A DNA stretch of 64,000 nt from Arenicola marina (taxonomy: Eukaryota > Annelida > Polychaeta > Arenicolidae): assembly GCA_964019135.1 (NCBI GenBank), contig OZ025264.1, forward strand, positions 37,781,994 to 37,845,993, given 5' to 3'. How positions within the stretch are numbered: position 1 is the first letter of the stretch; each line of letters starts with the position of its first letter. Both the position numbers and the translations under genes were made by a program. Shown in pieces: positions 4,201-24,961 of this stretch. The notes below the pieces were generated by a model. It was not told where the DNA came from. It searched no databases and saw only the letters and a list, made by a program, of their open reading frames with translations.

Positions 4201-7200
4201 TGGGAGTTGTACATATGAGAAGTCTGGTTCAGTGGTGTGGTGGGAGTTGTACATGTGAGAAGTCTGGTTCAGTGGTGTGGTGGGAGTTGTACATGTGAGA
4301 AGTCTGGTTCAGTGGTGTGGTGGGAGTTGTACATGTGAGAAGTCTGGTTCAGTGGTGTGGTGGGAGTTGTACATGTGAGAAGTCTGGTTCAGTGGTGTGG
4401 TGGGAGTTGTACATGTGAGAAGTCTGGTTCAGTGGTGTGGTGGGAGTTGTACATGTGAGAAGTCTGGTTCAGTGGTGTGGTGGGAGTTGTACATGTGAGA
4501 AGTCTGGTTCAGTGGTGTGGTGGGAGTTGTACATGTGAGAAGTCTGGTTCAGTGGTGTGGTGGGAGTTGTACATGTGAGAAGTCTGGTTCAGTGGTGTGG
4601 TGGGAGTTGTACATGTGAGAAGTCTGGTTCAGTGGTGTGGTGGGAGTTGTACATGTGAGAAGTCTGGTTCAGTGGTGTGGTGGGAGTTGTACATGTGAGA
4701 AGTCTGGTTCAGTGGTGTGGTGGGAGTTGTACATGTGAGAAGTCTGGTTCAGTGGTGTGGTGGGAGTTGTACATGTGAGAGTCTGGTTCAGTCGTGTACT
4801 GTACGTTGCAGGAGGGCGCCGTGTTGAATGGTCTCGACCCGGCCCTGGCCTCCTCTGCGGCCGCGGTCGCCGCCACCAGCGTCGGCCAGGACGGATTTAA
4901 CGGCAGCAGAAATGTACGTACACTGCACCGGCCGCTAGGTGGCGACACACAGTGACCCTTCACGTCTTCTCCGATATTTGTTCTTCAATTTGTTGTCAAA
5001 CAAATATAGCATGTGTATTCATTGGGTTGAGACTTGTATCCATATACCGGACGGACGGTAACCGAGCAGTACTATATGTGCCTGATCCATGTATGACCCC
5101 GGGACACATCTAGAAATCTAGTTGGAGGCGAATCCTTGTCACTTATGGACTAAAGCAACATACTCCGTTCATCTTTGAGTCCGCCATTAAAGTTTGCTGC
5201 TGTTAAGTTGGCATGTCAGACTGTCTCTGCGGAAGATTACTGCCTTGACTTTGCGCTGTAAGGCTGCGATGGTCTCCATTGATCCTCCAGGCCGGGCGGC
5301 AGTGGCTGCAGACAACGATGGCGTCACGACGGAAAAAAGTCACACAACACTTCGAGGACCTGGAACAGTGCTACTTTTCTTCTAGGCAGCGGGACTTATT
5401 AGACGCCGCAGATGTGGGTGAGTGGACTGCTTGGACGCTACAGATGTGGGTGAGTGGACTGGTTGGACGCCATATATATGTGTGTCAGAGGACTGGTTAG
5501 ACACAACAGATGTGGATAAGTGGACTGCTTGGACGCTACAGATGTGGGTGAGTGGACTGGTTAGACGCCACATATGTGTGTGAGAGGACTGGTTAGACAC
5601 CACAGATGTGGATAAGTGGACTGCTTGGACGCTACAGATGTGGGTGAGTGGACTGGTAAGACGCCACATATGTGTGTGAGAGGACTGGTTGGACACCACA
5701 GATGTGGATAAGTGGACTGCTTGGACGCTACAGATGTGGGTGAGTGGACTGGTTAGAAGCTGCAGATGTGAGTGAGTGGACTGGTTAGACGCCACATATG
5801 TGTGTGAGAGGACTGGTTGGACACCGCAGATGTGGATAAGTGGACTGCTTGGATGCTACAGATGTGGCTGAGTGGACTGGTTAGACGCTGCAGATGTGAT
5901 TGAGTGGACTGGTTGGACGCCACAGATGTGGGTGAGGACTGGTTAGACGCCACAGATGTGGGTGAGTGGACTGGTTAGACGCCACATATGTGTGTGAGAG
6001 GACTGGTTGGACACCGCAGATGTGGATAAGTGGACTGCTTGGACGTTACAGATGTGGCTGAGTGGACTGGTTAGACGCTGCAGATGTGAGTGAGTGGACT
6101 GGTTAGACGCTGCAGATGTGGGTGAGTGGAATGGTTGGAAGCCACATATGTGGGTGAGGACTGGTTAGACGCCACAGACGTGGGTGAGTGGACTGGTTAG
6201 ACACCGCAGATGTGGATAAGTTGACTGCTTGGACGCTACAGATGTGGCTGAGTGGACTGGTTGGACGCTGCAGATGTGAGTGAGTGGACTGATTAGACGC
6301 TGCAGATGTGGGTGAGTGGACTGGTTGGACGCCACAGATGTGGGTGAGGACTGGTTAGACGCCACAGACGTGGGTGAGTGGACTAGTTACACGCCACATA
6401 TGTGTGTAAGAGGACTGGTTAGACACCACTTTGTGGATAAGTGGACTGATTGGACGCTACAGATGTGGGTGAGTGGAATGGTTAGACGCTGCAGATGTGA
6501 GTGAGTGGACTGGGTAAACGCCACAGATGTGGGTGAGTAGACTGGGTAAACGCCACAGATGTGGGTGAGTGGACTGGTTAGACGCTGCAGATGTGAGTGA
6601 GTGGACTGGTTAGACGCTGCAGATGTGGGTGAGTGGACTGGTTAGACGCTGCAGATGTGAGTGAGTGGACTGGTTAGACGCTGCAGATGTGGGTAAGTCG
6701 ACTGGTTAGACTCCACAGATGTGGATGAGTGGACTGGTTAGACATATGTGGGTGAGTGGACTGGTTTGATATATGTGGGTGAGTGGACTGATTAGACATA
6801 TGTGGGTGAGTGGACTGGTTTGACATGTGGGTGCGTGGGCTGGTCAGACATATGTGGGTGCGTGGGCTGGTCAGACATATGTGGGTGCGTGGGCTGGTCA
6901 GACATATGTGGGTGCGTGGGCTGGTCAGACATATGTGGGTGAGTGGGCTGGTCAGACATATGTGGGTGAGTGGGCTGGTCAGACATATGTGGGTGCGTGG
7001 GCTGGTCAGACATATGTGGGTGAGTGGGCTGGTCAGACATATGTGGGTGCGTGGGCTGGTCAGACATATGTGGGTGAGTGGGCTGGTCAGACATATGTGG
7101 GTGAGTGGACTGGTTTGACATGTGGGTGCGTGGGCTGGTCAGACATATGTGGGTGCGTGGGCTGGTCAGACATATGTGGGTGCGTGGGCTGGTCAGACAT

Positions 7201-10200
7201 ATGTGGGTGCGTGGGCTGGTCAGACATATGTGGGTGAGTGGGCTGGTCAGACATATGTGGGTGAGTGGGCTGGTCAGACATATGTGGGTGCGTGGGCTGG
7301 TCAGACATATGTGGGTGCGTGGGCTGGTCAGACATATGTGGGTGAGTGGGCTGGTCAGACATATGTGGGTGAGTGGGCTGGTCAGACATATGTGGGTGAG
7401 TGGGCTGGTCAGACATATGTGGGTGCGTGGGCTGGTCAGACATATGTGGGTGAGTGGGCTGGTCAGACATATGTGGGTGCGTGGGCTGGTCAGACATATG
7501 TGGGTGCGTGGGCTGGTCAGACATATGTGGGTGCGTGGACTGGTTTGACATGTGGGTGAGTGGACTGGTTTGACATGTGGGTGAGTGGACTGGGTAGACA
7601 TATGTGGGTGAGTGGACTGGTTTGACATATGTGGGTGCGTGGGCTGGTCAGACATATGTGGGTGCGTGGGCTGGTCAGACATATGTGGGTGCGTGGTAAT
7701 GATATTGTAGATCCCGCTCTGGCTGACATGAATATTATTTAAGCCATGTCAGATTATGTTAAATAGTATTTCATTGTATAACAATACATGTACTATTGTT
7801 ACTAGTGTAAACATTGATATCTCATAGTGAATAGTGACACTTTTTGGCAGTGTAAAACGGATGATATTTTTGCGTGGTAAGCATCGATGGAGACTTTGGT
7901 TTTGTCTAAGATATCTCGCAGTGGCTCTCCGACTGATGTAATACCTGCGTCAATGCGATCGACATTCCTATGATATAAGCCGCTAGACTGATGCACTTAT
8001 GCTTGCATGTCGTTACAGGGTCTAGTTCCAGTAACCGCAATCTGGACGACTTCACGGAGAGTCTGTCCAAGTTTACTCGCTTTAGCTCCTTCAGAACACT
8101 CGCCACGCTAAATTATGCCAGTGATATATATAATACTTCTAGTATAGTGTCTAGGTAAGTACACCAGGCTGATATATATATTATACCAAGTCCAGTATAA
8201 AGTGTCTAATTAAGTACATGAGCTTAATATATATAAATATACATTTAGATATGTATGTATTTAAGCTGTCTAGTATAGTGTCTGAGTGTATACACCAAAC
8301 CGTTTAGTGTAGTGTCTTGGTGAATACACCAAGCCGTCTAGTAGTGTCTGGGTGAATACACCAAGCCGTCTAGTATAGTGTCTGGGTGAATACACCAAGC
8401 CGTCTAGTATAGTGTCTGGATGAATACACCAAGCCGTCTAGTATAGTGTCTTAGTGAATACGTCAGGCTGTATATTCCAAATACGTACAAGTGGCCAATA
8501 TGAAAAGGATTGTTTTTTGGGGTAGTTAAGTTTTGTATGTTATGATCACCGCTTTCTTTTGCTGCTCTTCATGCTGGCACTCCCAATGGTGCCGCTTGAA
8601 CTATGTACGTCATGGTTTACATGGTATTCGCACGTTGTCTTGTTACAGTATTGAGTTTGACCGAGACTGTGATTATTTCGCCATTGCCGGAGTGACGAAG
8701 AAGATCAAAGTGTTTGAGTACGGCACTGTGATACGCGACCAGGTTGATATGCACTACCCCATAATTGAGATGGTCTGCAACTCCAAAATCAGGTCAGTAT
8801 AAAATAATCTATAATGGTTACAGTTACGGCTACAGTGGGCGGCCAGTTGATACTCTACAGCTACAATAGGCAGCCAGTTGGTACTGTATAGCTACAGTGG
8901 GCGGCCAGTTGATACTGTACAGCTACAATGGGCGGCCAGTTGGTACTGTATAGCTACAGTGGGCGGCCAGTTGGTACTGTATAGCTACAGTGGGCGGCCA
9001 GTTGATACTGTACAGCTACAATGGGCGGCCAGTTGGTACTGTATAGCTACAGTGGGCGGCCAGTTGGTACTGTATAGCTACAGTGGGCGGCCAGTTGATA
9101 CTGTACAGCTACACTGGGCGGCCAGTTGGTACTGTATAGCTACAGTGGGCGGCCAGTTGATACTGTAGAGCTACAGTGGGCGGCCTGTTGATACTGTACA
9201 GCTACAATGGGCAGCCAGTTGGTACTGTATAGCTACAATGGGCAGCCAGTTGATACTGTCCAGCTACAGTGGGCAGCTAGTTGATACTGTGCAGCTACAG
9301 TGGGAGGCCAGTTGATATTGTACAGCTACAGTGGGCAGCTAGTTGATACTGTGCAGCTACAGTGGGCGGCCAGTTGATACTGTCCAGCTACAATGGGCAG
9401 CCAGTTAATATGTACAACTACAGTGGGCGGCCAGTTGATATTGTACAGCTACAGCGGGCGGCCAGTTGATACTGTACAGCTACAGTGGGCGGCCAGTTGA
9501 TACTGTACAGCTGCAGTGGGCGGCCAGTTGATATTGTACAGCTACAGTGGGCGGCCAGTTGATACTGTACAGCTACAGTGGGCGGCCAGTTGATACTGTA
9601 TAGCTACAGAGGGCGGCCAGTTGATACTGTCCAGCTACAGTGGGCGACCAGTTGATACTGTATAGCTACAGAGGGCGGCCAGTTGATACTGTCCAGCTAC
9701 AGTGGGCGGCCAGTTGATACTGTACAGCTACAATGGGAGGCCAGTTGATATTGTACAGCTGCAGTGGGCGGCCAGTTGATACTGTACAGCTACAGTGGGC
9801 GGCCAGTTGATATTGTACAGCTACAGCGGGCGGCCAGTTGATACTGTACAGCTACAGTGGGCGGCCAGTTGATATTGTACAGCTACCGTGGGCGGCCCGT
9901 TGATACTGTACAGCTACAATGGGAGGCCAGTTGATATTGTACAGCTACAGTGGGAGGCCAGTCGATGTTGTACAGCTACAGTGGGAGGCCAGTTGATATT
10001 GTACAGCTACAATGGGCGGCCAGTTGATATTGTACAGCTACAATGGGCGGCCAGTTGATATTGTACAGCTACAATGGGAGACCAGTTGATATTGTACAGC
10101 TACAGTGGGCGGCCAGTTGATACTGTACAGCTACCGTGGGCGGCCAGTTGACATTGTACAGCTACAGTGGGAGGCCGTAATCATTCTGTAGAGTAGTCGC

Positions 10201-13200
10201 TGAGATCACAATCGGCTTATTTGTTCAGTTCCATTGTGTGGAGCGCCTACCACAAGAACATGTTGGCGAGCGCAGACTACGAAGGCAACGTCACATTGTG
10301 GGACGCCTTCAACGGCGTCAAGTCCAGAGTCTTCCACGTGAGTCTTAATACATTTACCACACTTTTCTTCAATACGGTTACCACAATGTTCTTTGATGTT
10401 TAATACACTTACCACTGTATGTTCTGTGATGTGTAATACACTTACCACTGTATGTTCTATGGTGTGTAATACACTTACCACTGTATGTTCTGTGATGTGT
10501 AATACACTTCCCACTGTATGTTCTGTGATGTGTAATACACTTACCACTGTATGTTCTGTGATGTGTAATACACTTACCACTGTATGTTCTGTGATGTGTA
10601 ATACACTTACCACTGTATGTTCTGTGATGTGTAATACACTTACCACTGTATGTTCTATGGCGTGTAATACACTTACCACTGTATGTTCTATGGTGTGTAA
10701 TGCACTTACCACTGTATGTTCTGTGATGTGTAATACACTTACCACTGTATGTTCTATGGCGTGTAATACACTTACCACTGTATGTTCTATGGTGTGTAAT
10801 ACACTTACCACTGTATGTTCTGTGATGTGTAATACACTTACCACTGTCTGTTCTGTGATGTGTAATACACTTACCACTGTATGTTCTGTGATATGTAATA
10901 AACTTACCACTGTATGTTCTATGGCGTGTAATACACTTACCACTGTATGTTCTGTGATGTGTAATACACTTACCACTGTATGTTCTATGGCGTGTAATGC
11001 ACTTACCACTGTATGTTCTATGGTGTGTAACACACTTACCACTGTATGTTCTGTGATGTGTAATACACTTACCACTGTATGTTCTGTAATGTGTAATACA
11101 CTTACCACTGTATGTTCTATGGCGTGTAATACACTTACCACTGTATGTTCTGTGATGTGTAATACACTTACCACTGTATGTTCTATGGTGTGTAATGCAC
11201 TTACCACTGTAGGTTCTATGGTGTGTAATACCCTTACCACTGTATGTTCTGTGATGTGTAATACACTTACCACAGTATGTTCTATGGCGTGTAATACACT
11301 TACCACTGTATGTTCTGTGATGTGTAATACACTTACCACTGTATGTTCTGTGATGTGTAATACACTTACCACTGTATGTTCTGTGATGTGTAACACACTT
11401 ACCACTGTATGTTCTATGGCGTGTAATACACTTACCACTGTATGTTCTGTGATGTGTAATACACTTACCACTGTATGTTCCATGGTGTGTAATACACTTA
11501 CCACTGTATGTTCTGTGATGTGTAATACACTTACCATTGTATGTTCTGTGATGTGTAATACACTTACCACTATGTTCTATGGTGTGTAATACACTTACCA
11601 CTGTATGTTCTATGGCGTGTAATACACTTACCACTGTATGTTCTGTGATGTGTAATACACTTACCACTGTATGTTCTGTGATGTGTAATACACTTACCAC
11701 TGTATGTTCTGTGATGTGTAATACACTTACCACTGTATGTTCTATGGTGTGTAATGCACTTACCACGGTATGTTCTGTGATGTGTAATACACTTACCACT
11801 GTATGTTCTATGGTGTGTAATACACTTACCACTGTATGTTCTGTGATGTGTAATACACTTACCACTATGTTCTATGGTGTGTAATACACTTACCACTGTA
11901 TGTTCTATGGCGTGTAATACACTTACCACTGTATGTTCTGTGATGTGTAATACACTTACCACTGTATGTTCTGTGATGTGTAATACACTTACCACTGTAT
12001 GTTCTGTGATGTGTAATACACTTACCACTGTATGTTCTATGGTGTGTAATGCACTTACCACGGTATGTTCTGTGATGTGTAATACACTTACCACTGTATG
12101 TTCTATGGTGTGTAATACACTTACCACTGTATGTTCTGTGATGTGTAATACACTTACCACTGTATGTTCCATGGTGTGTAATACACTTACCACTGTATGT
12201 TCTATGGTGTTTAATACACTTACCACTGTATGTTCTATGGTGTGTAATACACTTACCACTGTATGTTCTATGGCGTGTAATACACTTACCACTATGTTCT
12301 GTGATGTGTAATACACTTACCACTGTATGTTCTGTGATGTGTAATACACTTACCACTGTATGTTCTATGGCGTGTAATACACTTACCACTGTATGTTCTG
12401 TGATGTGTAATACACTTACCACTGTATGTTCTGTAATGTGTAATACACTTACCCCTGTTATGTTCTGTGATGTGTAATACACTTACCACTGTATGTTCTG
12501 TGATGTGTAATACACTTACCACTGTATGTTCTGTGATGTGTAATACACTTACCACTGTATGTTCTGTGATGTGTAATACACTTACCACTGTATGTTCTGT
12601 GATGTGTAATACACTTACCACTGTATGTTCTATGGCGTGTAATACCCTTACCACTGTATGTTCTGTGATGTGTAATACACTTACCACTGTATGTTCTGTG
12701 ATGTGTAATACACTTACCACTGTATGTTCTGTAATGTGTAATACACTTACCACAGTATGTTCTATGGTGTGTACTGCACGTGCCACGGCATTGTCTGCAT
12801 AATGATAATCTGTATGTTTCATTTTGATAGGAACACGAGAAGCGATGTTGGAGCTTGGATTTCAATAAAATGGATCCCAAGTTATTGGCATCCGGGTCAG
12901 ATGATTCAAGAGGTATGAGCGCAGTGATGACATTATTGTAGAGGTATGAGCGCAGTGGTGACATTATTGTAGAGGTATGAGCGCAGTGATGACATTATTG
13001 TAGAGGTATGAGCGCAGTGATGACATTATTGTAGAGGTATGAGCGCAGTGATGACATTATTGTAGAGGTATGAGCGCAGTGATGACATTATTGTAGAGGT
13101 ATGAGCGCAGTGGTGACATTATTGTAGAGGTATCAGCGCAGTGATGACATTATTGTAGAGGTATGAGCGCAGTGATGACATTATAGAGGTATGAGCGCAG

Positions 13201-16200
13201 TGATGACATTATTGTAGAGGTATGAGCGCAGTGATGACATTATTGTAGAGGTATGAGCGCAGTGATGACATTATTGTAGAGGTATGAGCGCAGTGATGAC
13301 ATTATTGTAGAGGTATGAGCGCAGTGATGACATTATTGTAGAGGTATGAGCGCAGTGATGACATTATTGTAGAGGTATGAGGGCAGTGATGACATTATTG
13401 TAGAGGTATGAGGGCAGTGATGACATTATTGTAGAGGTATGAGCGCAGTGATGACATTATTGTAGAGGTATGAGCGCAGTGATGACATTATTGTAGAGGT
13501 ATGAGCGCAGTGATGACATTATTGTAGAGGTATGAGCGCAGTGATGACATTATTGTAGAGGTATGAGCGCAGTGATGACATTATTGTAGAGGTATGAGCG
13601 CAGTGATGACATTATTGTAGAGGTATGAGCGCAGTGATGACATTATTGTAGTGGTATGAGCGCAGTGATGACATTATTGTAGAGGTATGAGGACAGTGAT
13701 GACATTATTGTAGTGGTATGAGGGCAGTGATGACATTATTGTAGAGGTATGAGCGCAGTGATGACATTATTGTAGAGGTATGAGCGCAGTGATGACATTA
13801 TTGTAGAGGTATGAGCACAGTGATGACATTATTGTAGAGGTATGAGCGCAGTGATGACATTATTGTAGAGGTATGAGCGCAGTGATGACATTATTGTAGA
13901 GGTATGAGCGCAGTGATGACATTATTGTAGAGGTATGAGCACAGTGATGACATTATTGTAGAGGTATGAGCACAGTGATGACATTATTGTAGAGGTATCA
14001 GCGCAGTGATGACATTGTAGAGGTATGAGCGCAGTGATGACATTATTGTAGAGGTATGAGCGCAGTGGTGACATTATTGTAGAGGTATGAGGGCAGTGAT
14101 GACATTATTGTAGAGGTATGAGGGCAGTGATGACATTATTGTAGAGGTATGAGCGCCGTGATGACATTGTAGAGGTATGAGGGCAGTGATAACATTATTG
14201 TAGAGGTATGAGCGCAGTGGTGACATTATTGTAGAGGTATGAGCGCAGTGATGACATTATTGTAGAGGTATGAGCGCAGTGATGACATTATTGTAGAGGT
14301 ATGAGCGCAGTGATGACATTATTGTAGAGGTATGAGCGCAGCGATGACATTATTGTAGAGGTATGAGCGCAGTGATGACATTAGTGTAGAGGTATGAGCG
14401 CAGTGATGACATTATTGTAGAGGTATGAGCGCAGTGATGACATTATTGTAGAGGTATGAGGGCAGTGTTGACATTATTGTAGAGGTATGAGCGCAGTGAT
14501 GACATTATTGTAGAGGTATGAGCGCAGCGATGACATTATTGTAGAGGTATGAGCGCAGTGATGACATTATTGTAGAGGTATGAGCGCAGTGATGACTTTA
14601 TTGTAGAGGTATGAGCGCAGTAATGACATTGTAGAGGTATGAGCGCAGTGATGACATTATTGTAGAGGTATGAGCGCAGTGATGACATTATAGAGGTATG
14701 AGCGCAGTGATGACATTATTGTAGAGGTATGAGGGCAGTGATGACATTATTGTAGAGGTATGAGCGCAGTGATGACATTATTGTAGAGGTATGAGCGCAG
14801 TGATGACATTATAGAGGTATGAGCGCAGTGATGACATTATTGTAGAGGTATGAGCGCAGTGATGACATTATTGTAGAGGTATGAGGGCAGTGATGACATT
14901 ATTGTAGAGGTATGAGGGCAGTGATGACATTATTGTAGAGGTATGAGCGCAGTGATGACATTATTGTAGAGGTATGAGCGCAGTGATGACATTATAGAGG
15001 TATGAGCGCAGTGATGACATTATTGTAGAGGTATGAGGGCAGAGATGACATTATTGTAGAGGTATGAGGGCAGTGATGACATTATTATAGAGGTATGAGC
15101 GCAGTGATGACATTATAGAGGTATGAGCGCAGTGATGACATTATTGTAGAGGTATGAGGGCAGTGATGACATTATTGTAGAGGTATGAGCGCAGTGATGA
15201 CATTATTGTAGAGGTATGAGGGCAGTGATGACATTATTGTAGAGGTATGAGGGCAGTGATGACATTATTATAGAGGTATGAGCGCAGTGATGACATTATT
15301 GTAGAGGTATGAGGGCAGTGATGACATTATTGTAGAGGTATGAGCGCAGTGATGACATTATTGTAGAGGTATGAGCGCAGTGATGACATTATAGAGGTAT
15401 GAGCGCAGTGATGACATTATTGTAGTGGTATGAGGGCAGTGATGACATTATTGTAGAGGTATGAGCGCAGTGATGACATTATTGTAGAGATATGAGGGCA
15501 GTGATGACATTATTGTAGAGGTATGAGGGCAGTGATGACATTATTATAGAGGTATGAGCGCAGTGATGACATTATTGTAGAGGTATGAGGGCAGTGATGA
15601 CATTATTGTAGAGGTATGAGCGCACTGATGACATTATTGTAGAGGTATGAGGGCAGTGATGACATTATTGTAGAGGTATGAGGGCAGTGATGACATTATT
15701 ATAGAGGTATGAGCGCAGTGATGACATTATTGTAAAGGTATGAGGGCAGTGATGACATTATTGTAGAGGTATGAGCGCAGTGATGACATTATTGTAGAGA
15801 TATGAGGGCCGTGATGACATTATTGTAGAGGTATGAGCGCAGTGATGACATTATTGTAGAGGTATGAGCGCAGTGATGTCATTATAGAGGTATGAGCGCC
15901 GTGATGACATTATTGTAGAGGTATGAGCGCAGTGATGACATTATTGTAGAGGTATGAGGGCAGTGATGACATTATTGTAGAGGTATGAACGCAGTGATGA
16001 CATTATTGTAGAGGTATGAGCGCAGTGAAGACATTATTGTAGTGGTATGAGGGCAGTGATGACATTATTGTAGAGGTATGAGCGCAGTGATGACATTATT
16101 GTAGAGGTATGAGGGCAGTGATGACATTATAAAGGTATGAGCGCCGTGATGACATTATTGTAGAGGTATGAGCGCAGTGATGACATTATTGTAGAGGTAT

Positions 16201-19200
16201 GAGCGCAGTGATGACATTATTGTAGAGGTATGAGCGCCGTGATGACATTATTGTAGAGGTATGAGCGCAGTGATGACATTATTGTAGAGGTATGAGCGCA
16301 GTGATGACATTATTGTAGACGTATGAGCGCAGTGATGACATTATTGTAGAGGTATGAGCGCAGTGATGACATTATTGTAGAGGTATGAGCGCAGTGATGA
16401 CATTATTGTAGAGGTATGAGCGCAGTGATGACATTATTGTAGAGGTATGAGCGCACTGATGACATTATTGTAGAGGTATGAGCGCAGTGATGACATTATT
16501 GTAGAGGTATGAGCGCAGTGATGACATTATTGTAGAGGTATGAGCGCAGTGATGACATTATAGACGTATGAGCGCAGTGATGACATTATTGTAGAGGTAT
16601 GAGGGCAGTGATGACATTATTGTAGAGGTATGAGCGCAGTGATGACATTATTGTAGAGGTATGAGCGCAGTGATGACATTATAGAGGTATGAGCGCAGTG
16701 ATGACAATATTGTAGAGGTATGAGGGCAGTGATGACATTATTGTAAAGGTATGAGGGCAGTGATGACATTATTGTAGAGGTATGAGCGCAGTGATGACAT
16801 TATTGTAGAGATATGAGGGCCGTGATGACATTATTGTAGAGGTATGAGCGCAGTGATGACATTATTGTAGAGGTATGAGGGCAGTGATGACATTATTGTA
16901 GAGGTATGAGCGCAGTGATGACATTATTGTAGAGGTATGAGCGCAGTGATGACATTATTGTAGTGGTATGAGGGCAGTGATGACATTATTGTAGAGGTAT
17001 GAGCGCAGTGATGACATTATTGTAGAGGTATGAGGGCAGTGATGACATTATAGAGGTATGAGCGCCGTGATGACATTATTGTAGAGGTATGAGCGCAGTG
17101 ATGACATTATTGTAGAGGTATGAGCGCAGTGATGACATTATTGTAGAGGTATGAGCGCCGTGATGACATTATTGTAGAGGTATGAGCGCAGTGATGACAT
17201 TATTGTAGAGGTATGAGCGCAGTGATGACATTATTGTAGAGGTATGAGCGCCGTGATAACATTATTGTAGAGGTATGAGCGCAGCGATGACATTATTGTT
17301 GAGGTATGAGCGCAGTGATGACATTATAGAGGTATGAGCGCAGTGATGACATTATTGTAGAGGTATGAGCGCAGTGATGACAGTATAGAGGTATGAGCGC
17401 AGTGATGACATTATTGTAGAGGTATGAGCGCAGTGATGACATTATTGTAGAGGTATGAGCGCAGTGATGACATTATTGTAGAGGTATGAGCGCAGTGATG
17501 ACATTATTGTAGAGGTATGAGCGCAGTGATGACATTATTGTAGAGGTATGAGCGCCGTGATAACATTATTGTAGAGGTATGAGCGCAGTGATGACATTAT
17601 TGTAGAGGTATGAGCGTAGGGATGACATTGTTGTAGAGGTATGAGCGCAGTGATGACATTATTGTAGAGGTATGAGCGCAGTGATGACATTATTGTAGAG
17701 GTATGAGCGCAGCGATGACATTATTGTAGAGGTATGAGCGCAGTGATGACATTATTGTAGAGGTATGAGGGCAGTGATGACATTATTGTAGAGGTATGAG
17801 CGCAGTGATGACATTATTGTAGAGGTATTAGCGCAGTAATGACATTATTGTAGAGGTATGAGCGCAGTGATGACATTATTGTAGAGGTATTAGCGCAGTA
17901 ATGACATTATTGTAGAGGTATGAGCGCAGTGATGACATTATTGTAGAGGTATTAGCGCCGTGATGACATTATTGTAGAGGTATGAGCGCAGTGATACGAA
18001 TAATTGTGGAAGTATATGATTGTATTGAACAATGACGTGCTTTTGGTTATGATTGAAGCATTGCTGGTCATTGGCCAGGACTTTCTGCCTGACTACTACA
18101 TGGTTATGGTGAACTGTTGCCTTGTGACGCATGAGCTAGTACTGCAATAAGATTCTTTCTGTTTTCACAGTGAAGTTGTGGTACACCAACATGGAGCACT
18201 CAGTAGCCTTTATTGAAGCCAAGGCGAACGTGTGTTGTGTGCAGTTCAACCCCCAGAACAGATACCACCTGGCGTTTGGTTCGGCAGGTAAACCACAACT
18301 CTAGCTTGGCTCTTCTTAGAGCTGTTGCTGAAATAGATCAACAACGATAATCATTGTAAATTGTAAATGCTCCATGCCAGGTAGCCTTTTGGAAATACAT
18401 CTATTCTAGCCTATCCAATTTACAATGTAACAATTGTAACAATTTATAGTACTTGATAGAATAGAACTCTGTAAATGCAAGTGACTTTGCCGGTTTCAGA
18501 TCACTGCGTTCATTACTACGACCTCAGAAACACCAAACAAGCGCTCAACATGTACAAAGGTCATCGCAAGGCAGTCTCCTATGCCAAGTTCCTCAACCAA
18601 TCAGAGATTGTCTCAGCGTAAGTGCGGCGTGGACTGATGCTTTCACGTACTGGTTTGTTGTTCGTGTGCCCTAGACGGTGGCTGATGGTCCTCTGTTTTC
18701 GCCGTGCGGTCAAGTGGCACCCCCCCCTCCGCCCTAGACGTTGTCTGATGGCCCTTTGTTTTCGCCGTGTGGTTCAGTGGCCCCCGCCCCCCTAGGCGGT
18801 GGCTGATGGCCCTCTGTTGTCGCCGTGTGGTTCAGTGCCCCCCCCCCCGCCCCCCTAGGCGGTGGCTGATGGCCCTCTGTTGTCGCCGTGTGGTTCAGTG
18901 CCCCCCCCGCCCCCCTAGGCGGTGGCTGATGGCCCTCTGTTGTCGCCGTGTGGTTCAGTGCCCCCCGCCCCTCTAGGCGGTGGCTGATGGCCCTCTGTTG
19001 TCGCCGTGTGGTTCAATGGCACCCCCCCCCCCTAGGCGTTGGCTGATGGCCCTCTGTTGTCGCCGTGTGGTTTAGTGCCCCCCGCCCCCCTAGACGTTGT
19101 CTGATGGCCCTCTGTTGTCGCCGTGTGGTTCAGTGCCCCCCGCCCCCCTAGACGTTGTCTGATGGCCCTCTGTTGTCGCCGTGTGGTTCAGTGCCCCCCC

Positions 19201-22200
19201 CCACCCTAGGCGGTGGCTGATGGCCCTCTGTTGTCGCCGTGTGGTTCAGTGCCCCCCGCCCCCCTAGGCGGTGGCTGATGGCCCTCTGTTGTCGCCGTGT
19301 GGTTCAGTGCCCCCCCCCACCCTAGGCGGTGGCTGATGGCCCTCTGTTGTCGCCGTGTGGTTCAGTGCCCCCCCCCCCCCTAGGCGGTGGCTGATGGCCC
19401 TCTGTTGTCGCCGTGTGGTTCAGTGCCCCCCGCCCCCCTAGGCGGTGGCTGATGGCCCTCTGTTGTCGCCGTGTGGTTCAGTGGCACCCCCCCCCCCCTA
19501 GGCGGTGGCTGATGGCCCTCTGTTGTCGCCGTGTGGTTCAGTGCCCCCCGCCCCCTAGGCGGTGGCTGATGGCCCTCTGTTGTCGCCGTGTGGTTCAGTG
19601 CCCCCCGCCCCCCTAGGCGGTGGCTGATGGCCCTCTGTTGTCGCCGTGTGGTTCAGTGCCCCCCGCCCCCCTAGACGTTGTCTGATGGCCCTCTGTTGTC
19701 GCCGTGTGGTTCAGTGCCCCCCCCCCCACCCTAGGCGGTGGCTGATGGCCCTCTGTTGTCGCCGTGTGGTTCAGTGCCCCCCGCCCCCCTAGGCGGTGGC
19801 TGATGGCCCTCTGTTGTCGCCGTGTGGTTCAGTGCCCCCCCCCCACCCTAGGCGGTGGCTGATGGCCCTCTGTTGTCGCCGTGTGGTTCAGTGCCCCCCC
19901 CCCCCTAGGCGGTGGCTGATGGCCCTCTGTTGTCGCCGTGTGGTTCAGTGCCCCCCGCCCCCCTAGGCGGTGGCTGATGGCCCTCTGTTGTCGCCGTGTG
20001 GTTCAGTGCCCCCCCCCCCCTAGGCGGTGGCTGATGGCCCTCTGTTGTCGCCGTGTGGTTCAGTGCCCCCCGCCCCCCTAGGCGGTGGCTGATGGCCCTC
20101 TGTTGTCGCCGTGTGGTTCAGTGCCCCCCGCCCCCCTAGGCGGTGGCTGATGGCCCTGTGTTGTCGCCGTGTGGTTCAGTGGCACCCCGCCCCCTTAGAC
20201 GTTGCCTGATGGCCCTCTGTTGTCGCCGTGTGGTTCAGTGGCACCCCCCCCCCTAGACGGTGGCTGATGGCCCTCTACTTTTGCCGTGTGGTCCAGTGGC
20301 ACCGCCCCCGCCCCCCTACCAGACGGTGGCTGATGGCCGCCTGTTCTCTCTGCCTCAGGTCGACGGACAGCCAACTGAAACTGTGGAGTCTGAGCGCCAC
20401 GAGCCGCAAGACCGACCAGCATCAGTGTCTGCGCACCTTCAAGGGCCACACCAACGAAAAGAACTTCGTCGGCCTGGCGACAGATGGCGACTACATCGCC
20501 TGCGGTAAGTGACACCACGCAGTCTGCTGCTGGCGGGGTGAGGCACTTCCGCTAGTGTGACTCATGACCCACCGTCACAAGTCTGCTGCTAGCGGGGCGA
20601 GGAACTTCCGCTAGTGTGACTCATGACCCACCGTCACAGTCTGCTGCTAGCGAGGCGAGGCACTTTCGCTAGTATGACTCATGACCCACCGTCACAGTCT
20701 GCTGCTAGCGGGGCGAGGCACTTCCGCTAGTGTGACTCATGACCCACCCTCACAGTCTGCTGCTGGCGGGGCGAGGAACTTCCGCTAGTGTGACTCATGA
20801 CCCACCGTCACAGTCTGCTGCTGGCGGGGCGAGGCACTTTTGCTAGTATGACTCATGACCCACCGTCACAAGTCTGCTGCTAGCGGGGCGAGGAACTTCC
20901 GCTAGTGTGACTCATGACCCACCCTCACAGTCTGCTGTTGGCGGGGCGAGGCAATTCCGCTAGTGTGACTCATGACCCACCGTCACAGTCTGCTGCTAGC
21001 GGGGCGAGGCACTTCCGCTTGTGTGACTCATGACCCACCGTCACAGTCTGCTGCTAGCGGGGCGAGGCACTTCCGCTAGTATGACTCATGACCGTGCTGC
21101 TAGCGGGGCGAGGCACTTTCGCTAGTTCGACTCATGAACCACCGTCACAGTCTGCTGCTAGCGGGGCGAGGCACTTCCGCTAGTGTGACTCATGACCCAC
21201 CCTCACAGTCTGCTGCTGGCGGGGTGAGGCACTTCCGCTAGTGTGACTCATGACCCACCGTCACAAGTCTGCTGCTAGCGGGGCGAGGAACTTCCGCTAG
21301 TGTGACTCATGACCCACCGTCACAGTCTGCTGCTAGCGGGGCGAGACACTTCCGCTAGTATGACTCATGACCCACCGTCACAGTCTGCTGTTGGCGGGGC
21401 GAGGCACTTCCGCTAGTGTGACTCATGACCCACCGTCACAGTCTGCTGCTAGCGGGGCGAGGCACTTCCGCTAATGTGACCCCTGACCCACCGTCACAGT
21501 CTGCTGCTAGCGGGGCGAGGAACTTCCGCTAATGTGACCCCTGACCCACCCTCACAATCTGCTGCTGGCGGGGCGAGGAACTTCCGCTAGTTTGACTCAT
21601 GACCCACCCTCACAGTCTGCTGCTGGCGGGGCGAGGCACTTCCGCTAGTGTGACTCATAACCCACCGTCACAGTCTGTTCTTGAACATTATTGTTGTCTT
21701 CTACCTCTGTGAAATGTTTTAAGCAGGGGGTTATGTTAAAATCGTCATATTTCTCTTAACATAATGGGGTTAGATTGAATGCGATCTGTCTCTGGTTTGC
21801 GAGAGATTACTTTGTACTGCATGGATATAAAAATGTCAACTTGTGCAGGTATCCAAACAGTTGTTGGGTTAGATTCAGCTGGCAATTGTTTTGATGGTCC
21901 TCTAATCTTCTCCAACGTCTGTTTGTGCTACAGGAAGCGAGAATAACGCCCTCTATGTGTACTACAAAGGACTCACCAAACAACTCATGACTTTCAAGTT
22001 TGACACGGTGCGCAGTGTCCTTGTAAGTGTTCAAGTATGACATGGTGCGCAGTGTGCTTGTAAGTGTTCAAGTATGACACGATGCGCAGTGATCTTGTAA
22101 GTGTTCAAGTATGACACGATGCGCAGTGATCTTGTAAGTGTTCAAGTATGACACGATGCGCAGTGATCTTGTAAGTGTTCAAGTATGACACGATGCGCAG

Positions 22201-24961
22201 TGATCTTGTAAGTGTTCAAGTATGACACGATGCGCAGTGATCTTGTAAGTGTTCAAGTATGACACGATGCGCAGTGATCTTGTAAGTGTTCAAGTATGAC
22301 ACGATGCGCAGTCATTAGGGCTCAACGTAGACATGTGTTTGTAGTTCTTTCAGTAAGACTCAACGAAGACTTGTTTGTGTTTTCTCGTTAGGATTCAGTT
22401 TAGACATGTGCTTGTGTTCCTTTATTAGGATATCAGGATTTGTAGACTTGTTTCTGTTCTCTTGTTAGGACCTGGCGTAGATAGACCTTATCTGCTTTTG
22501 TTATCTCACTAAGAATCCATGTTTACTCTTTGTGTTCCCTGCTTTCGACTTCGTATATGCAGGTGTGTGTGTTTCTCTCTTTAGGAGAAGGACCAGAAAG
22601 AGGAGGAATCCAATGAGTTCGTCAGCGCCGTGTGCTGGCGTCCGGTCAGTCCTACTGGCTCTCAGAGCTCTGCTTCACTCAACATGTCGCTAACAATTTT
22701 CCACTACTTTAATCGCCGGTAGTTTTGGACCAGTTATTATATAGTATTCATCATTCCGTTCTGCATCTTACCTCTCAATGTTAGAGCATGTGAATTTTAA
22801 GGTCTTATTTAATGTCAGTTATTGTGGTTTGACGATTGATATCTGTATTTGTGTTTTATTTCAGAAATCCAATGTCTTACTGGCTGCCAACAGTCATGGT
22901 ATCATAAAGGTAATAGGACATGCCAGTGAATCTCATTGTATGTGTGCGATACCTTACTTGATCAGATTTTGGTGACAACGACGTTATATGACCTTAATTT
23001 TTCACTGCGCAGTTCACTCGCTCCTTGCTTGAGGAATGAAAAATCTGTCATCCTAGCCATGATTTGGGACTTGGGACAAGGCCAACTGTGCGATGGGCGC
23101 GGCGAGAAAAAGGGGTCGGTCCCTGTATGTAACTTAAATAAGCACCTGTTAACTATCTAGTTACAATATATTGGTGGAAGACACTGTGAAATTTTCCGTA
23201 TTTTTCTGTATCAATAACTGCGTTCAGTAAACTTAGCGCACTACAGCCCGCTGACTACCCAATGTTTACGCTGGCCTGACAGTGTTGCCGACGGCCGAAT
23301 TAAAACCGTAATTAGTGGACACTGATTAGCGGAAATGGGGAAACGGGTTTTGTTTTCGATAGATCGATTTATCTCGTTAAAAGTAGGTAATTGATGAACC
23401 CATGCATTTCTGTCTGAGATATATTACACAAAAATATAGATCTAAGCTTATGAAAATAAAATATGTACGGTACATGTTTTTATCTAAGATTAATTATTTT
23501 TAAATTTGTAATTTTTTGGTTTTTTATTATATTGGCATGTAGTTTCTCAAACAAAGGAAACTGCCAACCTGGCCTCTAACGCTGATTTAACGATTCATAT
23601 AATACCCAAATGTCTATCCTCCTAATTACAGAATTATGCGTCCTGGTTGTATCTCACAATAAAATTTAGAAGTGACCGCCAACCACGATTTCGCCGCTTA
23701 ACCAGGCGGCAGCCCTTTTTTGTGGTGTGTCCGCGATTGACCAATCATGAGGCGATACACTAATGATCAAACCGGAAATGAAGCCTACTGTGTGAGCAAA
23801 TACAAATAACTCCAATCATAACTTTTTTACTGAGACAATCGCTGCAAGAGATATATCAATATGTTTGGATGCAATTTTTCCATGAAACACTAAGATCATG
23901 GTCTACTGCGCGGCTCGGAACTGCCGTAATTCATCAGAAAATCGCGGCCCTGATCTCTCGTTTCACGCGTTTTCTCTGAAGGGTACCACTGTGAAGAGTT
24001 CCCTCTGCGAGATAACTTCCAGTTATAACGTAAGGCGGCGCCACATATAGGGTCAAAATATACGTCACTTGCTCCGGCAAAACGGCGCGCTGCTCGACAT
24101 TGATGGGGGCGGGTTGCCTTAATTTTTTCTCCTTACCATTCGGCCAAAACACAGCGTTAGCACTCGCCAAAGTAATTTTGAGGTGAACACTTTTGGTGCA
24201 GATCGCGATTAGATTAGATATGACACCAGCTTCAAGTGAACATACCAATAAAACATTGCAAAGTATGCAAATATGAATGTTCTTGTTCTTACAAAATTTG
24301 CCTGGTTGAATAGTTGTTGCATTGAAGGTTTAAAAACAAATTTTTGACGGTGATGGCTGTCCATACTTGTTATCCCATCATTCCAAATCAGTGTAAACAT
24401 TGGGCAATCTTCTAGCTGTTGTGCCCCAAGTTTACTGAGCGTGACCAATGTTATGGAAAAGTATATGTTCAATGTATCATCCGCCAACATATTGACACTA
24501 AACAGTTAACAGTTCTTTATTTAAAACACACAAAAGACTACTTGCGATCCACGCCTTGTTCGGCTTGCCGGCCGCGCAGCTTGCCTGGTTCCACGTCTTA
24601 TGTCGTAACTAGTATGACAGCCCTCTACGCGCGGTATCCATGGTTACGCAGGGGGCGAGTCAGACTGAACAAAAAGCACTTGTTCGTTTGTTTGTCTCCA
24701 AACTGTCGGACCGGAATAAAACCCGCGAGAGCTGACATGCCCTGTTCTCTGCGGCACACTATCTCGCTCCCACCAAATACTCCGTTGGATAGCACAATTT
24801 GTCCTACGACTACGGTGGTCTGGTCAAAAGTCCATAAGACGCTAAGTGAAACCTATCGACCTGCCTACGAGTCTTCCGACACATATTTATCTACAATTGA
24901 ATGTTTCTCGTGCTTGATATGTTTTTTTTGTGTTTTTTTGCAGGTTTTAGAACTTGTATGA
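1204..24961 (+). CDS. COP1: COP1 E3 ubiquitin ligase, 3' part of a multi-exon gene (join of 14 exons)
   Basis: COP1 is a RING-type ubiquitin ligase that works alone or with DET1-DDB1-CUL4 to mark transcription factors such as c-Jun and ETS proteins for the proteasome; its WD40 propeller binds the substrates. I join 1204-1263, 4812-4913, 5291-5417, 8019-8154, 8649-8792, 10229-10337, 12831-12912, 18171-18287, 18500-18617, 20359-20504, 21934-22022, 22585-22644, 22865-22909 and 24944-24961. Every intron is GT-AG and all phases agree, giving 450 residues and TGA. From the N side: end of the coiled coil, an Ala-rich linker, the [11 protein letters not shown] signature, then seven WD40 blades ending in VLELV, as in vertebrate COP1 (about 730 residues). 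The RING and the first coiled-coil part must lie left of the window. Nothing suggests a pseudogene. Exon junctions were placed by eye from homology recalled from memory and from splice consensus. Confidence 0.95.
1264..3538 (+). other. COP1 intron DNA, no gene recognised
   Basis: Unique intron sequence. A 143-nt open stretch at 1494-1636 has splice-like ends but breaks the COP1 phase. A minus-strand frame at 2647-2841 is open but resembles nothing I know. Short poly-C tracts occur near 1605 and 2298. Confidence 0.6.
3539..3583 (+). CDS. COP1: Possible extra COP1 exon in the linker
   Basis: A 45-nt open segment ([15 protein letters not shown]) lies between a good acceptor (TTGTGTTTAG ending at 3538) and a donor GTCAGT at 3584. 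Both ends are phase 0, so it can be included or skipped without changing the reading frame. It falls where the COP1 linker between coiled coil and propeller varies in length and sequence, so homology cannot decide. It could be a chance pair of splice signals. Confidence 0.4.
3909..4797 (+). repeat. 40-bp minisatellite, almost homogeneous
   Basis: About 22 copies of a 40-bp unit containing GGGAGTTGTACATGTGAGAA. I see only three or so changes (near 4123, near 4215 and a one-base deletion in the last copy), so it is recent or actively homogenised. The right end blends into the acceptor of COP1 exon 2: the flank 4790-4815 still resembles a unit. Confidence 0.97.
4812..4913 (+). CDS. COP1: COP1 exon 2: Ala-rich linker
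   Basis: Thirty-four codons, [18 protein letters not shown] and on, between TACGTTGCAG (ending 4811) and donor GTACGTA. Phase 0 at both ends fits its neighbours. The low-complexity Ala/Ser linker has no strong family signature; the call rests on frame, position, GC-rich codon use and splice signals. Its acceptor directly follows the 40-bp minisatellite. Confidence 0.75.
4914..5290 (+). other. Short COP1 intron without a long array
   Basis: A 377-nt intron between exons 2 and 3 with ordinary unique sequence; one of the few larger COP1 introns here lacking a minisatellite. Confidence 0.8.
5291..5417 (+). CDS. COP1: COP1 exon 3: conserved pre-WD40 segment
   Basis: Contains [20 protein letters not shown], the highly conserved block just before the COP1 propeller, preceded by a conserved Trp. 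I chose the acceptor CCTCCAG ending at 5290 over a later CTGCAG because it keeps that Trp. The exon ends with one base of a split Gly codon at a strong donor, GTGAGT (5418). The last about 25 coding bases plus the donor are the first unit of the array that fills the next intron. Confidence 0.93.
5392..6735 (+). repeat. 32-bp minisatellite seeded at the exon 3 donor
   Basis: About 42 copies of a 32-bp unit with GCAGATGTGGGTGAGTGGAC. The first unit is the end of COP1 exon 3 itself: coding bases to 5417 followed by donor GTGAGT. Many copies therefore carry an intact GG|GTGAGT donor; others read GTGTGTG, GTGGAT or similar. Copy divergence is moderate. Confidence 0.95.
6736..7696 (+). repeat. 27-bp derivative of the 32-bp array
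   Basis: The unit shortens by 5 bp to 27 bp around CAGACATATGTGGGTGCGTG and becomes much more uniform (about 35 copies). The donor-like core is GTGAGT in some copies and GTGCGT in others. A marker variant (TTTGACATGTGGGTGCG) recurs 295 bp apart near 6820 and 7115, showing block duplication. Both strands stay open in several frames because 27 is a multiple of three. Confidence 0.95.
7697..8018 (+). other. End of COP1 intron 3, unique sequence
   Basis: About 320 bp of AT-rich unique sequence ending in the exon 4 acceptor; no other feature seen. Confidence 0.7.
8019..8154 (+). CDS. COP1: COP1 exon 4: linker to first WD40 blade
   Basis: Reads [20 protein letters not shown] then [17 protein letters not shown], clearly the COP1 segment before blade 1. 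Acceptor CGTTACAG ends at 8018, donor GTAAGT at 8155. The exon enters in phase 1 and leaves in phase 2 (AG of a Ser codon). Its last 17 bases recur in the minisatellite downstream. Confidence 0.95.
8138..8475 (+). repeat. About 34-bp repeat seeded at the exon 4 donor
   Basis: The end of exon 4 plus intron start, TCTAGTATAGTGTCTAG then GTAAGTACACCAGGC, recurs downstream as TCTAGTATAGTGTCTGG then GTGAATACACCAAGC, about seven times, clearest between 8270 and 8470. The donor has decayed to GTGAAT in the copies. A diverged AT-rich stretch (8165-8265) separates the founder from the cleaner copies. Confidence 0.9.
8649..8792 (+). CDS. COP1: COP1 exon 5: WD40 blade 1
   Basis: Encodes [20 protein letters not shown] and [20 protein letters not shown], almost identical to vertebrate COP1 blade 1. 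Acceptor TTGTTACAG ends at 8648; donor GTCAGT at 8793. It enters and leaves within Ser codons (phase 2). Confidence 0.97.
8817..10180 (+). repeat. 31-bp minisatellite in COP1 intron 5
   Basis: About 44 copies of a 31-bp unit with CTACAGTGGGCGGCCAGTTG. It begins about 25 bp after the exon 5 donor and ends about 48 bp before the exon 6 acceptor, so it fills almost the whole intron. Many copies contain GGGCGG, a GC-box core. No clear copy of the splice site itself. Confidence 0.96.
10229..10337 (+). CDS. COP1: COP1 exon 6: WD40 blade 2
   Basis: Encodes [20 protein letters not shown] followed by [16 protein letters not shown], a complete blade with the terminal LWD. Acceptor TTGTTCAG ends at 10228; donor GTGAGT at 10338. 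Leaves in phase 0. Confidence 0.97.
10344..12782 (+). repeat. 33-bp minisatellite in COP1 intron 6
   Basis: About 73 copies of a 33-bp unit with TAATACACTTACCACTGTAT. Diverged units start 6 bp behind the exon 6 donor and become uniform after about 10400. Read on the minus strand each unit contains GTGGTAAGTG, a near-perfect 5' splice site. Three main variants (GTGATGTG, ATGGTGTG, ATGGCGTG) alternate, and the block ending in ACCACTATGTTC recurs about 300 bp apart near 11570 and 11865. Open frames of up to about 495 codons are repeat artefacts. Confidence 0.96.
12831..12912 (+). CDS. COP1: COP1 exon 7: start of WD40 blade 3
   Basis: Encodes [20 protein letters not shown] then SGSDDSR, a strong COP1 match. 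Acceptor TTTGATAG ends at 12830. The donor is the weaker GTATGA at 12913, chosen because it leaves one G that, with the next exon, makes the Val of VKLW. This donor is repeated in the array that follows. Confidence 0.95.
12906..17997 (+). repeat. 31-bp minisatellite seeded at the exon 7 donor, 5 kb
   Basis: About 160 copies of a 31-bp unit with GAGGTATGAGCGCAGTGATG. The first copy begins at the end of exon 7: the exon's GAG followed by the donor GTATGAG. So nearly every unit repeats AGAG|GTATGAG. Variants (GGGCAG, a 3-5 bp deletion before TAGAG) are arranged in blocks, pointing to unequal exchange. The array ends 173 bp before the exon 8 acceptor. Confidence 0.97.
18171..18287 (+). CDS. COP1: COP1 exon 8: WD40 blades 3-4
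   Basis: Encodes [20 protein letters not shown] and [19 protein letters not shown]. Acceptor TTTTCACAG ends at 18170; donor GTAAAC at 18288. Ends with one base of an Asp codon completed by the next exon. Confidence 0.96.
18500..18617 (+). CDS. COP1: COP1 exon 9: WD40 blades 4-5
   Basis: Encodes [20 protein letters not shown] and [19 protein letters not shown]. The YYDLR is the WDxR-type blade end; motifs of that type can contact DDB1 in CUL4 receptors. Acceptor GGTTTCAG ends at 18499; donor GTAAGT at 18618. Confidence 0.97.
18624..20358 (+). repeat. About 57-bp minisatellite filling COP1 intron 9
   Basis: About 29 copies of a 54-60 bp unit: GGTGGCTGATGGCCCTCTGT, then TGTGGTTCAGTG, then a poly-C tract (CCCCCCGCCCCCC) and CTAG. 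Diverged units run from 6 bp after the donor up to and including the exon 10 acceptor, whose TGATGGCCGCCTGTTCTCTC and CTCAG is a unit without the poly-C. The whole intron is array. Length varies mainly in the C tract. Confidence 0.95.
20359..20504 (+). CDS. COP1: COP1 exon 10: WD40 blades 5-6
   Basis: Encodes [15 protein letters not shown], a short insertion, then [20 protein letters not shown] and AC. Acceptor TGCCTCAG ends at 20358; donor GTAAGT at 20505. The acceptor lies inside the last, diverged copy of the array that fills the preceding intron. The loop after LWSLSAT is a few residues longer than I remember for the human protein. Confidence 0.96.
20511..21680 (+). repeat. 58-bp minisatellite with AP-1 sites in COP1 intron 10
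   Basis: About 20 copies of a 58-bp unit with GTCTGCTGCTAGCGGGGCGA and TGTGACTCATGACCCACC. The first copy begins about 6 bp after the exon 10 donor. I count 17 perfect TGACTCA heptamers, the classical AP-1 (Jun/Fos) site; three copies are altered (CGACTCA, and TGACCCC twice). Confidence 0.96.
21934..22022 (+). CDS. COP1: COP1 exon 11: WD40 blade 6
   Basis: Encodes [20 protein letters not shown] and [10 protein letters not shown]. Acceptor GTGCTACAG ends at 21933; donor GTAAGT at 22023. Ends in phase 0. The last about 25 bases plus the donor repeat in the short array that follows. Confidence 0.97.
21998..22318 (+). repeat. 37-bp repeat seeded at the exon 11 donor
   Basis: About eight to nine copies of a 37-bp unit. 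The founder is the end of exon 11 (GACACGGTGCGCAGTGTCCT) plus donor GTAAGTGTTCAAG; each following unit repeats GATGCGCAGTGATCTTGTAA and so carries an intact CTT|GTAAGT donor. Copies after the second are identical or nearly so, so the expansion is recent. Confidence 0.97.
22585..22644 (+). CDS. COP1: COP1 exon 12: start of WD40 blade 7
   Basis: Twenty codons, [20 protein letters not shown], match the acidic/basic loop and [10 protein letters not shown] of COP1. Acceptor TCTTTAG ends at 22584; donor GTCAGT at 22645. Phase 0 at both ends. Confidence 0.96.
22865..22909 (+). CDS. COP1: COP1 exon 13: WD40 blade 7
   Basis: Fifteen codons, [15 protein letters not shown], match the last propeller strand region. 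Acceptor TTTATTTCAG ends at 22864; donor GTAATA at 22910. Phase 0 at both ends. Confidence 0.95.
22910..23897 (+). other. Start of last COP1 intron, unique AT-rich DNA
   Basis: Intron sequence with no recognised coding region. Around 23330-23520 it is very AT-rich. Confidence 0.6.
23898..24035 (+). pseudogene. THAP-domain exon fragment inside a COP1 intron
   Basis: From ATG at 23898 the frame reads [20 protein letters not shown] then SFHAFSL, the first half of a THAP zinc finger: C-x4-C, then the SFHxF motif. THAP domains bind DNA and occur in P-element-type transposases and in host genes derived from them. The frame reaches a possible donor (AAC|GTAAGG near 24030) and a stop soon after. I find no second half with C-x2-H. 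Most likely a transposon remnant or a lone 5' exon nested in the host intron. Confidence 0.55.
24036..24943 (+). other. Rest of last COP1 intron
   Basis: No gene recognised. Open frames on both strands here (for example + 24419 on) show no family resemblance. The intron ends in a T-rich tract and TTTTGCAG. Confidence 0.55.
24944..24961 (+). CDS. COP1: COP1 exon 14: five-codon coding end
   Basis: After a T-rich tract and TTTTGCAG, the bases encode VLELV and stop TGA, the usual COP1 C-terminus. Only 18 coding nt lie in the last exon. No AATAAA lies between the stop and the minisatellite that begins about 30 bp later. Confidence 0.93.
   Translation, partial: VLELV

Follow-up and report, generated by a model that had tools for sequence, protein, structure and literature searches.

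Why do minisatellites in the introns of one COP1 gene so often contain both the last nucleotides of the exon before them and that exon's 5′ splice site, and does the same happen at other exon borders of this genome? The window, by which we mean the whole stretch of 64,000 nucleotides that was analysed, lies in an assembly of 867 Mb comprising 762 contigs, and it is the 3′ part of COP1 (RFWD2), encoded on the + strand, that raises the question.

Minisatellite arrays along the COP1 gene

Thirteen exons between positions 4812 and 24961 are connected by 12 joins into one unbroken COP1 reading frame, which makes the exon borders exact, and the predicted product matches solved COP1 chains. In a tree of COP1 proteins, which is weak evidence, the window copy pairs with one other sequence (96/79); that pair is grouped with Lamellibrachia with poor support (77/52), the annelid Owenia is placed elsewhere, and Branchiostoma falls in a different group from the window COP1. 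According to TRF, minisatellites are present in 8 of the 12 COP1 introns from exon 2 on. Upstream of these exons, a candidate extra COP1 exon (3539-3583, between 1263 and 4812) was picked out by eye, without homology support. The window begins with a 24-bp array (1-1079); the period is divisible by three, and the array gives a 225-residue open frame on the + strand (407-1084). It lies upstream of an exon at 1204-1263 and may be intronic. The arrays and the exons that matter for them are the following.

3908 to 4797, + strand: array of 40-bp units in the intron that precedes exon 2 (4812), ending 14 nt short of the acceptor, whose region it weakly resembles (P 0.001)
5291 to 5417, + strand: COP1 exon 3, in continuous frame; the array that follows opens with a part-unit formed by its final 26 nt (the TRF start lies 26 nt inside the exon)
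5392 to 7696, + strand: intron 3 arrays with 32-bp and then 27-bp units, in two overlapping TRF rows; the units are exon end plus GTGAGT
8019 to 8154, + strand: COP1 exon 4, in continuous frame
8137 to 8461, + strand: intron 4 array of 34-bp units akin to the end of exon 4 plus the donor (TRF and junction alignment)
8825 to 10176, + strand: intron 5 array with a 31-bp unit, starting 32 nt past the donor and not spanning the junction; absent from the earlier note on this DNA
10343 to 12773, + strand: intron 6 array with a 33-bp unit, matching the intronic part of the junction only
12831 to 12912, + strand: COP1 exon 7, in continuous frame
12909 to 17995, + strand: intron 7 array, a 31-bp unit repeated about 165 times, with AGAG and, after the border, GTATGAGC (TRF and junction alignment)
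18669 to 20345, + strand: intron 9 array with a 58-bp unit, ending 13 nt before the acceptor of exon 10; similarity reaches the acceptor region and stops short of the exon
20520 to 21677, + strand: intron 10 array with a 58-bp unit, starting 15 nt past the donor; not spanning
21934 to 22022, + strand: COP1 exon 11, in continuous frame
21993 to 22312, + strand: intron 11 array, 8.6 copies of a 37-bp unit that consists of 30 nt of the end of exon 11 plus GTAAGTG (TRF and junction alignment)

For the junction test, 13 donor and 13 acceptor junctions were aligned to 13 units and scored against a background of 2,000 random unique 60-mers. The donors of exons 3 (score 82), 4 (44), 7 (69) and 11 (90) matched their own arrays on both sides of the border, each with the lowest attainable P, 1/2001. 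Hence, the claim in the earlier note that the units after these exons consist of the exon end plus the donor is borne out for all four, which are half of the eight arrayed introns. Introns 6 and 10 gave intron-only matches (both with score 25, beginning at about +8 and +15, respectively), and the acceptor region of exon 10 displayed a weak match to its own array (P 0.003) that was confined to the intron side. Among unrelated pairs, two donor-unit pairs and one acceptor-unit pair had P below 0.02, which is chance level.

Other details of the earlier note stood in part. It placed the start of the intron 6 array about 6 bp after the donor; a degenerate 2.2-copy stretch does begin after 5 intron bases, but the main array begins after 48. 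The intron 10 array was correctly described as close to its donor, although it starts after 15 bases and not after 6. The last unit in intron 9, said to contain the acceptor, is indeed near it, but the array ends before the exon and its similarity does not extend into the exon.

The arrays that do span their donors differ from each other in extent. The first intron 3 array covers 5392-6824, and the two contiguous arrays of this intron were counted separately. In intron 4, degenerate copies extend from the donor on, and back across it, and the regular copies and the TRF start are found at 8263. The intron 7 array includes 4 exonic nt according to TRF and its unit matches 10 of the last 15 exon nt; overall, this case comprises 4 to 12 exonic nt. 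They also differ in the fate of the copied donors, whose strength was scored with a matrix built from a consensus. The prediction that dozens of decoy donors had been left in the gene holds: 150 sites in intron 7 and 32 in intron 3 are at least as strong as the real donor, and intron 11 contains 8 more. The donor is kept in the copies of introns 7 and 11 and in about half of those in the first intron 3 array (24 within 1 bit, 45 copies); in intron 4 the copied donors are weakened (GTGAAT) and 0 are within 1 bit of the real donor. A uniform decay of decoy donors was not found in the COP1 arrays.

Two more repeats lie downstream of COP1. Positions 45774-57853, about 12 kb, are a 23-bp satellite with 525 copies and 93% matches, whose long minus-strand open frames consist of the repeat, and positions 60058-64000 hold a 12-bp array, CTACCCCAGGCC, which continues past the end of the window and has 69-70% GC and a strong C skew.

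Donor and acceptor borders in fifteen genes

The survey of further genes started from 20 stretches of 10 kb around WD40 exons, hand-picked at hit clusters from 150 scored matches regardless of repeats, to which nine more stretches were added later. Arrays of at least 80 bp fill 20% of the first 200 kb surveyed. Fourteen WD40 genes beyond COP1 (135 introns) were splice-aligned using unverified human references; the COP1 counts use the exact borders given by the continuous frame rather than aligner output. When tried on COP1 against the coelacanth protein, the aligner placed 10 of 12 introns exactly; it set the intron 3 donor too early by 4 nt, followed by a spurious exon, and introduced another spurious exon, of 12 nt, in intron 12. 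After 52 exons had been dropped for length, identity or coverage, 15 genes with 147 introns remained, of which 56 introns contained an array and 42 an array of at least 3 copies with units of at most 100 bp. Loci L003, L008, L012, L015, L019 and L020 stand outside the intron counts. The results apply to one gene family (WD40), 147 introns and one assembly; several cut-offs were tried, and the P values derive from a uniform-placement model in which the founding duplication is placed evenly in the intron with its arrays collapsed.

Similarity of the junction to the array of its own intron was detected for 14 of 42 donors and for 2 of 42 acceptors (two-sided P 0.004 for 14 to 2; 10 to 2 without COP1, P 0.039). 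The 99% quantile of mismatched pairs was zero on both sides, and at least 99% of the 1,722 mismatched pairs scored zero; a comparison of units with adjacent exon ends had been suggested in the earlier note. Mirage-type donor arrays, named after the amphioxus minisatellites discussed below, are thus present in about one in ten sampled introns (14/147). Array placement gave a similar picture: 13 of 49 arrays span a donor where 4.5 are expected (P 2e-4), and 10 of 40 against 3.2 when COP1 is left out (P about 7e-4). No excess was observed for acceptor-spanning arrays (3 against 4.5 expected among the 49; 3 against 3.2 without COP1), nor for arrays beginning within the 50 nt behind a donor (8 against 6.6). 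The uniform test of array starts that the earlier note had called for, run here on 15 genes, therefore rejects uniform placement at donors and not at acceptors. Its view that array edges coincide with splice sites beyond chance is correct for donors, in COP1 as well as in the 14 pooled genes, but neither for acceptors nor for the 50 nt behind donors; likewise, "seeding by splice junctions" describes a real tie to exon borders that concerns donors only (13 or 14 cases against 3 or 2 acceptors).

The donor excess persisted when the criteria were changed. With all 73 arrays, including two-copy ones, donors were spanned 14 times against 6.9 expected (P 0.006) and acceptors 4 times. Requiring an exonic overlap of at least 6 to 15 nt, without COP1, left 7 to 9 cases against 2.2 to 3.0 expected (P 0.0017 to 0.016), and removal of COP1 plus any one further gene gave P values of 0.0003 to 0.0036.

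In the 14 donor-spanning cases the unit measures 19 to 80 bp, and its exonic share ranges from 0.08 to 0.81 across 13 arrays. Coding sequence recurs near-exactly in each unit of LIS1 (34 nt), STRN (44), CIAO1 (22 and 18, in two introns), COPA (18), KATNB1 (18, at 17619) and CDC20 (16). Four of the 14 cases have 4 to 7 exonic nt according to TRF (COP1 exon 7, SKI8, COPA 4808 and KATNB1 8207), and in 9 of the 14 the exon does not end in AG. The two acceptors spanned by similarity are COPA 23132 and KATNB1 18625 (joined-locus coordinates). The latter belongs to KATNB1 intron 17619-18625 (L011+L028), which contains a donor-spanning array with a 38-bp unit and an acceptor-spanning array with a 54-bp unit.

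Array growth and the competing explanations

Array length decreases from donor to acceptor (rho -0.45, P 0.001), and the gradient is also seen without COP1 with a slightly different position measure (rho -0.52, P 5e-4). Of ten arrays with at least 30 copies, four span a donor and none an acceptor; nine start at most 48 nt behind the donor, and the tenth prolongs the first COP1 intron 3 array. Outside COP1, all five arrays of this size start between -22 and +24 of the donor (product of the single chances 7e-4). A sign test on the side of the intron was not significant (30/49, P 0.15). The first two copies were less consensus-like than the middle ones in 8 of the 14 arrays, and the last two in 6 of the 14, so that neither a clear direction of growth nor a greater age of the exon-proximal copies emerged. 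Without COP1, arrays cover 28% of introns and 29% of the sequence outside annotated spans, which may hold other genes, with one shared locus counted twice; this equal coverage indicates that transcription is unnecessary for arrays as such.

The reading that we favour, with a confidence that is about even, is that the arrays are "mirage" minisatellites, generated by duplications that cross an exon border, tolerated at donors and subject to additional growth at the donor end of the intron. A short tandem duplication would cross an exon-intron border by chance and then expand, and the mirages would be one slice of the heavy minisatellite load of this annelid genome. A duplication at the 3′ edge of an exon would keep the original donor in first position with the copies as intronic decoys behind it, so that the mRNA could stay intact. 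At the 5′ edge of an exon the extra acceptors would precede the real one, and acceptor-spanning arrays are presumably less tolerated; the 3 observed are not clearly fewer than the 4.5 expected, and the count thus does not demonstrate purging at acceptors. Stop codons offer a comparable case. The CDC20 stop codon is crossed by an array (L030, reverse-complement 6964-7173), again at a 3′ edge with the original first, which fits the tolerance view. The FBXW7 stop codon (L007, 6334-6404) is probably crossed as well, with less certainty because the stop was taken 63 nt beyond the aligned end, and an array crossing the stop codon was absent in 7 of the 9 genes with a complete 3′ end.

Tolerance alone explains neither the excess of donor-crossing over interior arrays nor the fact that arrays at the donor end are the largest. 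Larger donor-end arrays, together with donor crossing commoner than uniform nucleation predicts, point to an expansion bias tied to the start of the intron; it may be co-transcriptional, for instance if the polymerase pauses, or U1 binds, at the 5′ splice site. This leads to a bolder proposition that we put forward only tentatively: in this annelid, and perhaps in other minisatellite-rich animals, DNA would expand preferentially at 5′ splice sites because of their position in transcribed genes and not because of their sequence, so that mutation positioned by splicing or transcription would build up decoy donors while the spliceosome commits to the first donor transcribed.

A simpler scheme dispenses with donor-linked growth altogether. 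Duplications would arise uniformly and selection would do the rest: coding ones die, acceptor-crossing ones are purged because an upstream decoy AG is taken first, and donor-crossing ones survive. The ratio of 14 to 2, also seen as 10 to 2 without COP1, agrees with this scheme, and the wide range of exonic shares fits random placement. Moreover, if ancestral introns were about 200 bp long, 7.0 donor-spanning arrays would be expected (P 0.016) and acceptors would be short of arrays (P 0.066). This length appears too short, however, given that the median is 388 bp for array-less introns and 351 bp for what is left of arrayed introns once their arrays are removed. At 385 bp, the 13 donor cases compare with 4.0 expected (P 1.5e-4), with no shortage of arrays at acceptors (P 0.43). 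In addition, selection alone does not predict that the longest arrays lie at the donor end, and we therefore regard it as a rather unlikely full account.

Alternatively, the DNA of the 5′ splice site itself, or an R-loop or U1-linked lesion formed there, could trigger duplication. The enrichment is indeed specific to units that include the donor and does not extend to the 50 nt behind it, and the spanning units have a sense GC skew of +0.18 (positive in 10 of 14). Yet other intronic arrays have a skew of 0.00 and array-less introns one of 0.01, and since the value for spanning units includes the exon end and the donor sequence it lends no support to R-loops, one of the mechanisms that the earlier note had offered as examples. 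The 35 non-spanning arrays displayed no enrichment of donor-like motifs (4 sense and 4 antisense against 2.7 expected). Donor strength was alike in introns with spanning arrays (7.6 bits), with other arrays (7.9) and with none (7.5), and exon-end GC was no different. A donor-sequence trigger is for these reasons improbable. Nucleation in GC-rich DNA fared no better, unit GC being 0.440 against 0.419 in the flanks (n 33, P 0.52). Thus, R-loops judged by GC skew, donor-motif nucleation and GC-rich nucleation were each without support.

Two further explanations can hardly hold. One is that the introns were gained by tandem duplication of exonic AG/GT segments, a model discussed for amphioxus globins in the available excerpts of PMC3087553, with the arrays as its remnant: the units do carry exon sequence and splice signals, but related repeats at both intron ends, which it predicts, come closest in one of 42 arrayed introns (the KATNB1 intron described above), where the listed units differ, and the absence of a terminal AG from 9 of 14 exons is contrary to it. 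The other, equally remote, is chance or artefact through misplaced junctions, arrays drawn a few bases too long by TRF or a fortunate choice of genes, for which the unverified references, the imperfect aligner trial, the filtered exons, the restriction to WD40 genes and the weakening of P to 0.004-0.016 once COP1 is left out and the overlap must reach 8 to 15 nt can be cited, and against which stand the exact COP1 junctions, the near-total absence of matches in mismatched pairs and the near-exact recurrence of 16 to 44 coding nt in the six genes listed above from LIS1 to CDC20.

Decoy donors and known systems

Altogether 444 decoys score above the real donor or at most 1 bit below it, and 441 of them are located inside the 14 spanning arrays; in CDC20, CIAO1 and COP1, between 72 and 150 near-identical decoy donors follow a single exon. 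Only 7 of the 444 would keep the frame, all of them in CDC20, where a 79-copy donor-spanning array in the intron at reverse-complement 3677-6676 (L030, minus strand) is open in the exon frame for 792 nt past the donor, so that 7 decoys could add stop-free coding sequence. Since nearly all decoys break the frame, the first donor would have to serve most functional mRNAs. For COP1, as judged from the reading frame, normal splicing would leave the frame intact only if the first donor is used, which implies that commitment must be strongly ordered or exon-defined. Having 72 to 150 decoys behind one exon thus constitutes a natural test of 5′ splice site choice, and the donor-only excess together with the size gradient allows a test of the idea that 5′ splice sites act as mutational hot spots for tandem expansion.

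Some known systems share part of this organization. The polyubiquitin gene UBC contains a tandem array of dual-specific splice sites (PMC10809524, available excerpts); as here, each tandem unit carries a splice signal, usable in UBC, but the UBC units are coding monomers that are spliced in or out, whereas the annelid copies lie in the intron and would in nearly every case break the frame. Internal tandem repeats at exon-intron boundaries in humans indicate that expansion of a boundary minisatellite can alter splicing (PMC2812944); these have 4 repeats per unit on average and lie in segmental duplications, and the excerpts available do not mention a donor bias. Earthworm metallothionein repeats are located in intron 1 and, in the part of the source at hand, are not described as junction copies (PMC12783039).

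The closest precedent is the one that the earlier note mentioned from amphioxus and that the literature confirms. In the accessible parts of these reports, "mirage" minisatellites are described in the Adh3, troponin C, globin and PGBD5 genes, with units of 10-72 bp in Adh3 and 150-160 bp in globins (PMC3087553, PMC3902484). Both systems have repeats that span the exon-intron boundary, here at 14 donors and 2 acceptors of the 42 arrayed introns, and many copies with splice signals, here 441 decoys (none in the COP1 intron 4 array). Length polymorphism, somatic instability and undisturbed normal splicing also count among the traits of mirages; a single assembled sequence represents the annelid arrays. 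The annelid units of 19 to 80 bp were judged to be in the reported range, although those of COPA (76 and 80 bp) fall between the two amphioxus ranges. Both borders are affected in the annelid too, but with a strong donor bias; the globin paper, in the excerpts available, notes that both boundaries duplicate. The cephalochordate range of mirages does not include the present host, which COX1 identifies as an annelid (Pilargis wolfi 91%, closest among the 120 proteins listed); this is a difference in range and not in structure. The COX1 sequence comes from contig C762, translated with the invertebrate mitochondrial code; Saccocirridae and further phyllodocids and nereidids come next in similarity, which places the host probably near Phyllodocida and rejects an amphioxus origin. 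Among the literature matches listed (titles, abstract starts and passages), none reported mirages outside cephalochordates, which is not proof of absence. The amphioxus reports, as far as their excerpts go, concern single genes, whereas in the annelid 14 of 147 sampled introns are affected, with up to 165 copies. The phylum, this frequency, the copy numbers, the donor bias and the size gradient therefore look new. Mirages would thus extend to a second phylum where, at about one in ten sampled introns, they are common rather than anecdotal.
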